64,000 nt of DNA, taken from positions 248,001 to 312,000 of the forward strand of contig JANRJQ010000004.1 in the NCBI GenBank assembly GCA_033763895.1. Direction: 5' to 3'. Below, piece after piece: positions 45,567 to 52,470 of the stretch (position 1 is its first letter; each line of letters opens with the position of its first letter). The DNA is from Chloroherpetonaceae bacterium (GTDB lineage Bacteria > Bacteroidota > Chlorobiia > Chlorobiales > Thermochlorobacteraceae). The notes under the pieces are model-generated. The model worked only from the letters and a program-made list of their open reading frames with translations. It did not search any database and had not been told where the DNA came from. The position numbers and the translations under genes are program-made.

Positions 45567-45832
45567 CCGTTCACAGTTTCAATTGGTTAGAGTCAATTTC
45601 GATAGATTTACCCACCATTCAAATTAATCCTTTTTTGCCCTTTTTGATTTCAAACAATGTTAAAAATGCCAAAAAAATCTGTTTGCTTTTACGGAAAATT
45701 TACGGTTACTTGTAACTGTCCGATGCAAACCGGTCGACAATCCGTTTCGGACTTCACAAAGAGTATTTGCTCACTTTTACCGTAGTACCTTTTCGCCGAC
45801 AGTATAGAAAAACCAATTTCGGCAAAATCTAT

Positions 45833-47950
45833 ATGGCTCTAATTCTTTCCGAGAATCTACGCAATGTGGTTCTCGCCGGTCATGCTTCAACCGGTAAAAC
45901 GATGCTCACCGAAGCTTTCGCACTTTCTTCAGGTTTGATACAAACATTAGGCAGTATCGAACAAGGAACCACCCTCTCCGACCACGCTCCCGACGAAATT
46001 ATTCGTAAACATAGTATAAACTCAGACCTCATCAATTTCACTTGGAAAAATTATAAGATTAACCTTATCGATACACCCGGATTTGCCGACTTTCGCGGCG
46101 ACGTGAAATCCGCAATGCGAGTAGCCGATACAGTAATCATTACAGTTAGTGCCTCAACAGGGCCTGAAGTTGGAACCGATACTGCCTTTGATGATGCCTC
46201 AGAGTTCTACAAGCCAACCTCTTTTGTAATTACAAAACTTGATGCGGACCGAGCAGGTTTCAATGAAGCCATTGATTCGCTCATTGAGCGTTATGGCCGT
46301 GCCGTTGTTCCCATTCAATTTCCAATCGAAGCCGGCCTTCAACACCACATTTTGGTGGATGTACTGCAAATGAAGCAATATGAATTTACACCCGATAAGC
46401 CGGGCACAATGAAGGTTGTAGATATCGACGATGAATATCGAGAAGCCGCAAAAGCTGCACATGCCAAATTGGTTGAAGCCGTTGCAGAAACAGACGAAAC
46501 TTTAATGAATAAATTTTTTGAAAATGGCGGCGAACTCTCTGAAGAAGATCTTCGTGAAGGGGTTAAACATGCCCTTCTTACACGAACACTTTTTCCGGTT
46601 TTCTGCGCTTCTCCGCTTCATCTTCTTGGCGTTGAACGGCTTCTGGATTTGATGGTCAGCATATTCCCTTCACCTATTGAACGGGGCGCAGAACACGCTA
46701 TTGAAATTTCTTCATCAAATGAGGTTTTGCTTGAACCAAAATCAGAATGCGATACAGTGGCATTCGTCTTTAAAACTGTCTCGGAGCCTCATGTCGGAGA
46801 ACTTTCATTTGTTCGTGTTTATGCAGGCCATATTGAAAGTGGGCATGAACTCATCAATGCTCAAACAAAACAGCCTGAAAAGTTAGGAACGGTTTACACC
46901 GTAGTGGGTAAAGATAAAATTCCTGCTCAAAAGCTATTTGCCGGCGATTTTGGCGTTGTCTTGAAAATGAAAGACTCACACACCAATAATACCTTAGCCG
47001 ATAAAGGCGTCAATTTGGTCATTAAGCCGGTTCAGTTTCCTGAGCCAGTTACTGACATTGCTGTAAAACCCGTAGCGCGTGGAGATGAAGAAAAAATTTC
47101 TACTGCACTTTTCCATCTTCATGAAGAAGACCCAAGTTTCAAGATTCATCGCGATGAAGAGACGGCTCAACTTATCCTTTCAGGTTTGGGGGATATTCAT
47201 CTTGAAACGATAATCAGACGCTTAAAAGAAAAATTTGGCATTTCAGTAATTACCGAAGCACCTCGGGTTGCCTACCGAGAAACAGTTCGCCTTTCCGCAA
47301 GCGCACAAGGAAAATTTAAACGGCAAAACGGTGGGCACGGCCAATATGGCGATACTTGGATTCGTGTGGAACCTCTTCCGAGAGGAACCGGAAATCAGTT
47401 TACATCTGAAGTTGTGGGCGGCGTTGTTCCAACTCGCTTTATCCCTGCTGTTGAAAAGGGCGCAGAAGAAACATTCAAACAAGGAATCTTAGCCGGTTTC
47501 CCGATTATGGATATGAAGGTGGTAGTCTATGACGGCTCACATCATCCGGTTGATAGTTCGGAAATGGCATTCAAAGTTGCTGCCCAAATGGGAATAAAGG
47601 CGGCTTTTGAAAAAGCGCATCCGGTACTTTTAGAGCCTATTTATAAGGTTGAAACTTTCGTGCCTGATGAATATACCGGAGAGGTGATTGCTGAATTATC
47701 TTCGCGAAGAGGAAAAATCGTTGGTTTCGATTCCGATGACTCGGGCGAAACTTCAATTACCGTCGCAAGGCATATTCAAACGCTCCAAGCATTGGTTCCA
47801 CTGTCAGAACTTTATGGTTATCAAAGTGCACTGAATCGTATCGCTCAACGGCGCGCTACATTTAAACGCGTTTTCAGTAATTATGAAGAAGTTCCTTTTG
47901 AACTCGCTGTAAAAGTTGTCGAACTCAATAAAAAGAATCACCAAGAGTAA
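45833..47950 (+). CDS. elongation factor G-like translational GTPase (EF-G paralogue)
   Basis: The start is placed at ATG 45833 (MALILSENLRNVVLAGHAST), giving 705 residues. All EF-G domains are present: G1 GHASTGKTML, G3 DTPGFADFRGD, G4 TKLD, a domain II with EPHVGELSFVRVYAGHI, and domains III-V including GHGQYGDTWIRVEPL and EPIYKVETFVPDEYTG. The switch I region lacks the RGITI motif of translocating EF-G and instead reads DEIIRKHSINS. This fits the FusA2/EF-G-2 group of paralogues, some of which act in ribosome recycling or have no known role. The main fusA is presumably elsewhere. Confidence 0.92.
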   Translation: MALILSENLRNVVLAGHASTGKTMLTEAFALSSGLIQTLGSIEQGTTLSDHAPDEIIRKHSINSDLINFTWKNYKINLIDTPGFADFRGDVKSAMRVADTVIITVSASTGPEVGTDTAFDDASEFYKPTSFVITKLDADRAGFNEAIDSLIERYGRAVVPIQFPIEAGLQHHILVDVLQMKQYEFTPDKPGTMKVVDIDDEYREAAKAAHAKLVEAVAETDETLMNKFFENGGELSEEDLREGVKHALLTRTLFPVFCASPLHLLGVERLLDLMVSIFPSPIERGAEHAIEISSSNEVLLEPKSECDTVAFVFKTVSEPHVGELSFVRVYAGHIESGHELINAQTKQPEKLGTVYTVVGKDKIPAQKLFAGDFGVVLKMKDSHTNNTLADKGVNLVIKPVQFPEPVTDIAVKPVARGDEEKISTALFHLHEEDPSFKIHRDEETAQLILSGLGDIHLETIIRRLKEKFGISVITEAPRVAYRETVRLSASAQGKFKRQNGGHGQYGDTWIRVEPLPRGTGNQFTSEVVGGVVPTRFIPAVEKGAEETFKQGILAGFPIMDMKVVVYDGSHHPVDSSEMAFKVAAQMGIKAAFEKAHPVLLEPIYKVETFVPDEYTGEVIAELSSRRGKIVGFDSDDSGETSITVARHIQTLQALVPLSELYGYQSALNRIAQRRATFKRVFSNYEEVPFELAVKVVELNKKNHQE

Positions 47951-47961
47951 TCCTTTTTTTT

Positions 47962-47996
47962 GCGAAGTACTTTGCTTAATTAGCAAAGTGCTTCGC
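47962..47996 (+). terminator. hairpin terminator after EF-G paralogue
   Basis: A 15-bp stem (GCGAAGTACTTTGCT / AGCAAAGTGCTTCGC, one G-T pair) has a five-base loop and begins 11 bp after the stop codon. AT-rich rather than pure T sequence follows, so efficiency is uncertain. Confidence 0.7.
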
Positions 47997-48059
47997 TTAT
48001 ATATTTAGGCTTAGCTACCTGTAGTTTCTTTGTTTTTAACATTTACAGAAGTATGTCGT

Positions 48060-48440
48060 ATGGTAGTTATTGTCGATAAAGAACCCCATTTTGTTCAATC
48101 ACTCACAGAATATCTTTCCAAAGAGTTTCCGGTTATCGGGTTTACATGCGCTGAAGCAGCGCTTCAATACATCGAGAAAAATTTTCATCGCATTGCCCTT
48201 TGCATAACCGATAACCAAATGCCTCAGCTTAATGGAATTGAATTCGCCAAAAAAGTAAAGTCTCAAGATCGTGAAATTGAAGTTTTACTCACTTGCAGAT
48301 TCTATGATTACAACGATTTCGAAAGGCTCTTGAAGGAGCAGGTTATCAACGAATTTTTGCAAAAACCATTTTCGTTTGAAACCATCTATTCAAAACTCCA
48401 AACCCGAAGAAAACTCGTTTACAAATCAAAGAGGTTTTAA
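48060..48440 (+). CDS. single-domain response regulator
   Basis: The start is placed at ATG 48060 (MVVIVDKEPHFVQSL), since the TTG at 48030 adds nothing typical. The 126-residue receiver has phospho-acceptor Asp in LCITDNQMPQLNG, Thr in LLTCRF and Lys in LQKPFS. The N-terminal acidic pair is reduced to VDKE, with only one Asp in place, which may weaken Mg2+ binding. There is no output domain. No kinase is adjacent; the hybrid kinases earlier in the window are far away. Role unknown. Confidence 0.85.
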   Translation: MVVIVDKEPHFVQSLTEYLSKEFPVIGFTCAEAALQYIEKNFHRIALCITDNQMPQLNGIEFAKKVKSQDREIEVLLTCRFYDYNDFERLLKEQVINEFLQKPFSFETIYSKLQTRRKLVYKSKRF

Positions 48441-48511
48441 TTTTTTCCACCACCATTTTTTATCTACGACGAGATTTCTTTATATTCGCCAAAAATCGAT
48501 ACTCCCGATAT

Positions 48512-48574
48512 CTTCGGACACGGTATTGAGCTGAGCAAAACTCAGTTTTAGTCGAAAACGGCGAGTGTCTGAAG
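48512..48574 (+). promoter_or_regulatory. structured 5' leader of metH, candidate riboswitch aptamer
   Basis: The 63-nt element folds by eye into a compact three-way junction. P1 is 10 bp (48512-48521 with 48565-48574, one G-U). P2 is 5 bp (48531-48535 with 48541-48545, loop CAAAA). P3 is 4 bp (48546-48549 with 48555-48558) and abuts P2. The 3' strand of P1 can instead pair with TCTTC at 48586-48590. An intrinsic terminator follows at once, and metH starts 84 nt after the element. A possible -10 box TATATT lies at 48481-48486. It does not fit the SAM-I, SAH or cobalamin consensus as I recall them; SAM-Chlorobi RNA should be tested. Confidence 0.6.
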
Positions 48575-48591
48575 AAAAAGTTTCATCTTCT

Positions 48592-48619
48592 AAGCCTTTC
48601 CTTTCGGGAGGGCTTTTTT
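48592..48619 (+). terminator. intrinsic terminator in the metH leader
   Basis: The stem AAGCC-T-TTCC pairs with GGGAGGGCTT (one bulge, loop TTTCG) and is followed by six T. It lies 39 bp before metH and just after the structured leader, so it could be the expression platform of a riboswitch. It may also simply end transcripts from the response regulator gene. Confidence 0.8.
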
Positions 48620-48657
48620 GTTTTCTGCCACGCCACAATGATTCATTCATTTAAGTT

Positions 48658-51600
48658 ATGTCTATACCAAAAATTAACGAGGTTTTAGAAAATCGTATTC
48701 TTGTGCTTGATGGTGCAATGGGTACAATGATTCAACGCTACAAGCTTGATGAAGAAGCCTATCGTGGGGAAAGGTTTAAATCATTTGAACCGAATTCAAA
48801 AGAACGAATTGATGATAAAAAGTCGCTTGAAGATGCAGTTTGTGAAGACCCCAAACACGGGCATAGTTTTAAGCCCATTAAAGGTTCGCTCCGTGGCAAT
48901 AACGAATTGCTTTCGCTCACGCAGCCGCACATTATTTCTGAGATTCACAAAGAATATCTTGAAGCGGGTTGTGATATTTTAGAAACCAATACATTCAGTG
49001 CCAATCGCATTTCCCAAGCTGATTATGGGATGGAACATTTGGTTTATGAAATGAACTTCCAATCAGCCAAACTTGCAAAAGGCGCTACTGAAATCTTCAC
49101 TTCAAAACATCCCGAAAAGCCACGTTATGTAGCCGGAGCGCTTGGACCAACAACGAAACTCGCTTCGATGTCTCCCGATGTGAACGATCCCGGATTTCGC
49201 GCAGTTACATTCAAAGAACTTCAAGATGCATACTTCGAGCAAATTTGCGGGCTTGTTGATGGCGGCTCCGACCTTCTATTAATTGAAACCATCACCGATA
49301 CGCTCAACACAAAAGCTGCTATTGTTGCGCTCGAAACTTATTTTACTAAAATCGGGAAAAGACTTCCTGTCATGATCTCCGGAACCATCGTTGATCAAAG
49401 TGGGCGTACGCTGTCCGGTCAAACCACAGAGGCTTTTTGGATTTCCATCGCACACACACCCAACTTGCTTTCCGTTGGATTAAACTGTGCATTAGGGTCT
49501 AAGCAAATGCGTCCATTTATTGCTGAGCTTGCACGCGTTTCAGATTGCTTTACCAGCCTTTATCCCAATGCTGGCCTGCCCAATGAAATGGGAGAATATG
49601 ATGAATCGCCGGAGTATATGGCGAAAGAACTTCAAGATTATGTCAATGAGAATTTCGTCAACATTATCGGCGGATGTTGCGGTACAACACCAGAACATAT
49701 TGCTGCATTCGTCGAAGTTGCAAAGCGAAGTAAACCCCGAAAGAAAAATCCGCACAAAACACTCTTCTCGCTCTCCGGTCTTGAGCCTCTCAACGTTTTA
49801 CCCGAAACGAATTTCCTTAATGTTGGCGAACGCACCAATGTTACCGGCTCACCAAAATTTGCGAAATTAATTTTAGCCGGTAACTATGACGAAGCCCTTT
49901 CGATTGCTCGCCAGCAAGTTGAAAACGGCGCACAAATCATCGATGTCAATATGGATGAAGGTATGCTCGATAGTGAAGCCGCGATGGTTAAGTTCCTTCA
50001 TCTTCTATCGGCAGAGCCGGATATTGCACGCGTTCCGATTATGATCGACTCTTCCAAGTGGAGTGTTATTGAGGCAGGGCTTCAATGCTTGCAAGGCAAG
50101 TGCATCGTTAATTCAATTTCACTTAAAGAGGGAGAAGAAAAATTCAAAGATTACGCCAAACGCATTCTTTCGTATGGCGCAGCTACAGTAGTGATGGCGT
50201 TTGATGAACAAGGTCAGGCCGATAACTTTGAAAGAAGAGTTGAAATTTGTTCCCGTGCCTATCGCATCTTAACCGAGGAAGTTGGGTTTAACCCACAAGA
50301 CATCATCTTCGACCCCAATGTGCTTACTGTAGCTACTGGCATTGAAGAACACAATAATTATGCAGCTGATTTTATCCGTGCCACACATTGGATAAAAACG
50401 CATCTCCCGCATGCAAAAGTCTCAGGTGGGATTTCAAACATCTCATTTTCCTTCCGTGGAAATAATCCCGTTCGTGAAGCAATGCATAGCGTCTTCCTCT
50501 ATCATGCCATTAAAGCCGGGCTTGATATGGGAATCGTTAATGCAGGCCAACTCGCAATCTATGATGACATTGAGCCGGAACTTCGCGAACGGGTTGAAGA
50601 TGTTATCCTTAACCGTCGTACCGATGCCACTGAAAGACTGATTGAACATGCTGAATCAATTAAAAATCAAGGCAAAGAAAAGGCTGAAACGAAAAAGGAT
50701 GAATGGCGCTCTTTACCGGTCGAAGAGCGGTTGAAGTATGCGCTTATCAATGGCAATACAGATTTTATTGATCAGGATACAGAAGAAGCGCGGCAAAAGT
50801 ACCCTCGCCCGCTTTCCGTCATTGAAGGCCCTTTGATGGATGGCATGAATGTCGTCGGCGATTTATTCGGCGCCGGAAAAATGTTTTTGCCGCAAGTAGT
50901 GAAATCGGCACGCGTGATGAAAAAATCAGTCGCTTACCTTATTCCATTTATCGAAGCCGAAAAAGCCGGAAAGTCTGAGAAGGCCGCTAAAATTCTTTTA
51001 GCGACCGTTAAAGGCGATGTTCACGACATCGGAAAAAACATTGTCGGGGTTGTACTTGCCTGCAATAATTTTGAAGTCATTGACCTTGGCGTAATGGTTC
51101 CGGCTGAGCGGATTTTGGATACTGCTGAAAAGGAGCAAGTCGATATCATCGGGCTATCAGGGCTCATTACACCATCGCTTGATGAGATGGTTTATGTCGC
51201 GAAGGAAATGGAACGTCGAGGATTAAAAATCCCACTCTTAATCGGGGGTGCGACCACCTCAAGAATTCATACCGCAGTTAAAATTGTGCCCAATTATTCC
51301 AACGCTGTTATTCATGTGCTTGATGCTTCGCGCTCGGTTCCTGTTGTTCAAAATTTGATCGGTAAAGATTCTAGAGAAACCTTTGTCGCAAAAATGAAAT
51401 CAGAGTATGCTATTGCTCGGCAAGAACATAGCCGACGAAAGCAAGAAAAAAAATATCTGACTTATGAAAAGTCACTTGCCAATAAAGCCCAAATTCAATG
51501 GACAGAAAAATGTGTCTTTAAACCAACGAAAACTGGCATTTTCCAAATCTCTGTTGATCTTCAAACCCTTCGCAAATACATCGATTGGACACCCTTCTTC

Positions 51601-52470
51601 CAATCTTGGGAACTTGCCGGCCGTTACCCGGCAATTCTCTCCGACGACATTGTAGGAAAAGAAGCGACCAAACTCTTTAACGATGCAACAGTTTTGCTCG
51701 AAAAGATTATTGAAGAGAAATCGTTGAAAGCCTCGGGTGTGTATTTTATTTACCCTGCAAATTCAGTAGGCGATGATGTTGAAGTTTATACCGATGAATC
51801 GAGAAGTTCTGTACTTAAAACCTTCCATTTCCTTCGTCAACAAGGAGAAATGTCGAAGGGATTGCCCAACTTTTCACTTTCAGATTTTATTGCGCCTAAA
51901 GAAAGTGGTCTTGAAGACTACTTCGGAGGATTCGCCGTTACAGCCGGAATCGGAACGGAAGAACTGGCCTCTCAATTTGAAAAAAATAATGACGACTACA
52001 ATGCCATTATGGTTAAAGCCTTAGCAGACCGCTTGGCAGAAGCTTTTGCTGAATACTTGCATGAATTGGTTCGCCGCGAATTTTGGGGCTATGAAACAGG
52101 GAATCCTTTACCCAACGAGGCGTTGATTAATGAATCCTACCAAGGCATTAGGCCTGCACCGGGCTATCCGGCATGCCCAGACCACACCGAGAAATTCTTA
52201 CTCTTTGAACTTTTAGAACCTGAAACTCGAGTTGGAATTTCTTTGACTGAATCCGCCGCTATGTATCCGGCTGCATCTGTGAGTGGTTTTTATATCGCAC
52301 ACCCCGAGTCGAAATACTTTGCACTTGGGAAAATCGAGCGCGATCAAGTTGAGAATTATGCTTTGAGGAAAAATATGCCAGTTGAGCTTGTCGAGCGTTG
52401 GCTTTCACCAGTTCTGAATTATGAACAAACCGAAACCTCCGAAACTTCAACCATTGGAACTGAAGCTTGA
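48658..52470 (+). CDS. metH: cobalamin-dependent methionine synthase
   Basis: The 1270-residue enzyme has all four modules. The homocysteine domain has [19 protein letters not shown] and zinc ligands in GLNCALG and [10 protein letters not shown]. The methyltetrahydrofolate domain has [18 protein letters not shown]. The B12 domain has [19 protein letters not shown], with His789 as the cobalt ligand. The AdoMet reactivation domain ends with [19 protein letters not shown]. It methylates homocysteine using 5-methyltetrahydrofolate. The start ATG 48658 matches the family N-terminus. The gene is monocistronic and preceded by the leader described separately. Confidence 0.98.

Follow-up and report, generated by a model that had tools for sequence, protein, structure and literature searches.

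A metH leader RNA that very probably belongs to the SAM-Chlorobi family, and its predicted three-strand toggle

What RNA precedes metH in this genome, and could it control the gene? The gene (48658-52470; all coordinates are on the plus strand of the window, the whole 64-kb stretch of DNA analysed) encodes a cobalamin-dependent methionine synthase, as seen from its Pfam domains and from matches far above cut-off to the equivalogs TIGR02082 and NF007024. Near the N-terminus of the protein (residues ~55-75) there is an insertion, shared with the relatives L036, L040, and L044, which is His/Cys-rich in relatives (for example HHHHGGSCSHGH) and possibly metal-binding. Three features precede metH in turn: a promoter-like box, a structured stretch of sequence, and a strong terminator of the intrinsic type. 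The box, TATATTCG (48481-48488), is a -7 box of the Bacteroidota/Chlorobi type; noted as a possible -10 box in the first-pass annotation, it gains weight from its spacing, since nearly all homologous metK and metH leaders of families f1-f3 have a TA box starting 13-19 nt from the aligned element. The transcript would start close to the first conserved helix, P1. The terminator is a stem-loop of ten pairs (48592-48615) followed by TTTTGTTTT, with a T run at 48614-48624 and 42 nt between the stem and the metH ATG (48658); terminator-like sites number 4, against 0.7 in shuffles. For the likely transcript (48493-48622), the minimum-free-energy (MFE) structure consists exactly of a three-way junction and this terminator; its energy is -43.3 kcal/mol, with a z of -3.65 and 1 of 200 shuffles equally good, so that the parts of the cis-regulatory metH RNA with terminator proposed earlier are indeed present. 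A 9-bp stem with AUAUUCGCC, which appears in the MFE structure of 48481-48660, is rejected because its AUAUUCGCC strand coincides with the promoter box. Immediately before the metH promoter lies the gene of a stand-alone response-regulator receiver domain (PF00072; 48030-48440), and further upstream an elongation-factor-G-like gene (45767-47950), followed by a perfect 15-bp terminator-like hairpin (47962-47996).

The structured stretch contains three conserved helices. P1 joins 48496-48503 to 48522-48529, with eight pairs in the window; P2 joins CCGA (48505-48508) to UCGG (48514-48517); and the latter strand lies also within the 5' strand of a long-range helix, UCUUCGGACAC (48511-48521), which is made up of the ACAC bulge, the 3' strand of P2, and the loop, and whose 3' strand, here called the switching strand, is GUGUCUGAAGA (48565-48575). 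The connector holds a P3 hairpin (48528-48548; MFE structure), which is visible at the same place in relatives with poorly conserved sequence, and a small second hairpin, GUCG/CGGC (48551-48562), which is seen in the MFE structure only. The long-range helix is the closing stem of the first-pass annotation, which correctly placed two inner hairpins within it but counted 10 bp instead of 11 and named it P1; it is in fact the long-range GGACAC:GUGUCC helix of SAM-Chlorobi RNA, which excludes P2. The 63-nt element drawn around it is likewise real, but comprises about 80 nt and starts further upstream, its conserved core of P1 and P2 next to the promoter having been missed.

The aligned leaders show P1, P2, and the long-range helix to be conserved and covarying. 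In a set of 33 leaders, controlled with shuffles and slid strands, P1 and P2 together are 98% paired (at most 37% in the slid controls) and undergo two-sided changes at 7 of 11 pairs, in 54 cells against a shuffle mean of 15.6; these fall on five of the seven pairs of P1 and two of the four of P2, which is paired in 100% of cells. The six core positions of the long-range helix are paired in all 33 leaders, with one two-sided change from A-U to G-C (L044) and three changes from G-C to G-U; Rfam's RF01724 model leaves the distal GUGUCC strand of this helix unpaired. The helix reaches 11 bp in the window's genus, in the metK copy of the window's genome, and in genus g4. Over nine leaders of the family, the 11-bp helix shows two-sided changes at 5 of its 11 pairs, with 87.9% of cells paired against at most 47% when slid, which is the covariation that the first-pass annotation had proposed to look for in homologous metH leaders.

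To which family, then, does this RNA belong? The Rfam scan yields a full-length match to SAM-Chlorobi RNA (RF01724; 48497-48593, model positions 1-87 of 87) with no broken pair and a score of 24.5 bits, below the gathering threshold of 35, which is a curated cut-off rather than a structural feature and is reached by no family anywhere in the 64-kb window. The low score would suit a riboswitch class that is new and has no relation to SAM-Chlorobi, an option that had been listed beside SAM-Chlorobi RNA itself, but this is extremely improbable: it is refuted by the covariation of P1 and P2 and by homology to an independent covariance model (R1), trained exclusively on 14 metK leaders, with the window's genome left out and P1 and P2 given as structure, and it is further opposed by intermediate sequences in eight relatives and by the same placement relative to promoter and gene. 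In the 64 kb, R1 finds the metH leader as its sole match (E 6.6e-6, 11 of 11 pairs intact), and the entire 3.5-Mb genome yields two and no more, the metH leader and the metK leader, the latter copy being followed by metK and ahcY. P1 and P2 with the ACAC bulge are present in the window and all their pairs are standard; the distal strand reads GUGUCU instead of GUGUCC and is complementary to GGACAC with one G-U pair; and the promoter sequence upstream of the element, itself a SAM-Chlorobi trait, is found at the conserved distance. Because covariance-model homology, covariation, and family-wide conservation all point the same way, the element is read here, with a probability of about 0.97, as a divergent member of the SAM-Chlorobi RNAs. 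Every metH copy in the family also scores below the Rfam threshold for RF01724; these copies are therefore invisible to routine annotation, and the window's had been overlooked. Other Rfam candidates in the leader were set aside: Phe_leader, tsr26, STnc180, and suhB give weak, chance-level matches, and the cobalamin and SAM-I riboswitches give none.

The metH copy is, on the genomes compared, an extension specific to one family, f1, the relatives of Ca. Thermochlorobacter to which the window's genome belongs, since each of its nine genomes (the window's included) has the RNA twice, before metK(-ahcY) and again before metH, whereas the other families of the order have the metK copy only. Class-wide, the RNA is found in 88 of 98 genomes; outside f1 there is essentially one copy per genome, before metK in every leader read. 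R1 has no credible match in the metH leaders of 20 genomes from the other three families, and the model search does not find the element in the metH leaders of Chlorobiaceae, Chloroherpeton, and G010. Among about 300 other Bacteroidota genomes sampled there is a single match (G273, outside Chlorobia; 32.5 bits), a false positive inside a short-chain dehydrogenase gene; weak R1 matches in G012, G005, G002, G009, and G010 fall within unrelated coding sequence or close to it and were likewise discarded. The targets named by Weinberg et al. 2010 (PMC2864571) are metK/ahcY, and later literature treats the RNA as a predicted motif or gives metK-ahcY as its targets; within the literature searched, metH thus appears to be an addition to the known targets.

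The geometry of the element suggests how it could work. The long-range helix uses the 3' strand of P2 and part of the P2 loop, so that the two helices are mutually exclusive on the aligned sequences. Within the shared strand, alignment positions 19 and 20 change together with both competing partners: P2 5' strand, shared strand, and mid-strand read CCGA, UCGG, and CUGA in the window, CCAA, UUGG, and CUGA in the metK copy of the same genome, and CCAU, AUGG, and CCAU in the metH leader of genus g4. A strand that truly pairs both ways should leave just this pattern, and the double covariation thus indicates a three-strand toggle. P1 may persist alongside the long helix, in which case the two would form an H-type pseudoknot.

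Coupled to a terminator, such a toggle would let this divergent SAM-Chlorobi RNA, with which the metH mRNA begins, act as a transcription attenuator. In one state the switching strand (48565-48575) and the P1-loop strand form the long helix, the terminator would fold, and metH would be off; in the other, P2 holds the shared strand, which would leave the switching strand and the sequence just preceding it free for downstream pairing, hinder the terminator, and keep metH on. Folding by partition function is consistent with this in most leaders: cut before the 3' arm of the terminator, they mostly form P2 and have the terminator's 5' arm paired upstream, and with the full terminator most form the long helix. 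A hairpin occupies the terminator position in all nine metH leaders of f1 (in L042 with a poor T run), and also in the metK leaders of genera g1, g2, and g4 and of G010. Between the RNA and the terminator, L036 and L040 carry near-identical tandem repeats (CAAGTGTTTCAG), whose copy number varies among close relatives.

The other way to read the terminator is as a mere intrinsic terminator with chance structure before it, ending transcription from the receiver-domain gene upstream while metH has a promoter of its own. That gene does end at 48440 on the same strand, and intergenic terminators are common, but the promoter box upstream of the element is conserved, the sequence between the terminator and the ATG contains no visible TAnnTTTG box, and all f1 metH leaders have kept the element; this reading is accordingly given very little credence.

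The antiterminator half of the proposed attenuator is best seen in relatives. A duplex test against shuffles is uninformative for most leaders, and the partition-function test was used instead; in it, the antiterminator complementarity is matched by only 0-6 of 120 shuffles in the metK leaders L051, L035, L039, L043, L045, L047, and L048 and in the metH leader L044. The metH leaders of genera g2 and g3 show no significant complementarity in the same shuffle test, and the window's antiterminator is not above chance (79 of 120 shuffles match it); prediction gives the window a split ensemble even before the terminator is complete. The closing stem can re-pair, as had been suggested from its 3' strand, but the partner then proposed, UCUUC (48586-48590), forms with GAAGA (48571-48575) a weak hairpin of 5 bp and -2.8 kcal/mol, which is not above shuffles and leaves the terminator arm uncovered. 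Since its own antiterminator is weak, attenuation in the window is drawn from the relatives, from its own terminator, and from its own strong long helix, the antiterminator step being inferred by homology; taken together, these considerations make attenuation by the toggle a likely mode for the metH leader.

This mode does not hold throughout the class. Among 30 Chlorobiaceae leaders (L001-L030), only four have even a weak terminator hairpin, none convincing; metK leaders there mostly lack an intrinsic terminator, and attenuation is therefore not the mode everywhere. The 70 nt after the RNA in these leaders are C-rich and G-poor (640 C to 325 G over the 30), which would suit Rho-dependent control. 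In genus g3, the metK leaders L033, L037, and L041 have no intrinsic terminator and the metH leaders of the same genomes have one, so that the two copies within one genome may work differently.

What signal would set the toggle? The products of metK, ahcY, and metH, three core genes, together form the activated-methyl cycle, and a signal of that cycle is thus the natural input. Plentiful signal, most simply SAM or a related metabolite, would favor the long helix; because the long helix is the predicted off state, SAM is the simplest ligand candidate, with SAH, methionine, or a protein also considered. SAM is preferred here despite in-line probing of several SAM-Chlorobi constructs that, in the 2010 report (PMC2864571), did not reveal SAM or SAH binding. 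This outcome lends weight to a different reading, in which the RNA is a SAM-Chlorobi homolog but no metabolite sensor, and a protein (or the ribosome or Rho) sets the read-through into metK and metH by binding the conserved GGACAC switch; the short conserved core and the terminator-free, C-rich and G-poor Chlorobiaceae leaders, suited to Rho, agree with it. It is nevertheless unlikely, as no protein candidate is linked to the RNA, the context of metK, ahcY, and metH is typical of metabolite riboswitches, and the terminator-coupled toggle in f1 needs no protein. Direct sensing of a metabolite by a candidate riboswitch is somewhat favored. The broader proposal, that SAM-Chlorobi RNAs are genuine riboswitches for methyl-cycle metabolites, acting through the three-strand toggle (with P1, an H-type pseudoknot) and spread to metH in f1, and that binding may have escaped the earlier probing, either because some other metabolite of the cycle is the ligand or because the constructs failed to capture the toggle, is tentative. 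SAM-Chlorobi RNA has counted as an orphan among riboswitch candidates since 2010. Having metH as a second, conserved target gene narrows its ligand to a signal common to metK, ahcY, and metH, and with the terminator-coupled three-strand architecture of f1 both mechanism and ligand can be probed in simple in vitro transcription, an approach to which the terminator-free leaders of Chlorobiaceae do not readily lend themselves.

Among known systems, the window copy shares with SAM-Chlorobi RNA as described by Weinberg et al. 2010 (RF01724; PMC2864571) P1, P2, the ACAC bulge, and the distal GUGUCC strand. Further common points are a promoter just upstream and a position in the 5' leader of methyl-cycle genes. 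It differs in preceding metH rather than the known targets metK/ahcY, which is not a structural difference, in falling below the Rfam cut-off, in the extension of its long helix to 11 bp, and, unlike most Chlorobiaceae leaders, in the intrinsic terminator that follows. SAM-II and SAM-V riboswitches are H-type pseudoknots, which P1 and the long helix would also form, likewise beside methionine-cycle genes, but the Rfam models for SAM-II, SAM-II long loops, and SAM-V have no match at E<10 in 47500-49500. The SAH riboswitch is known elsewhere before ahcY and metH, and its model too is without a match at E<10 in the same interval. The SAM-I attenuators of Gram-positive bacteria are an unrelated RNA, without an Rfam match in this leader, but resemble the proposed switch in placing a mutually exclusive antiterminator and terminator before methionine genes.
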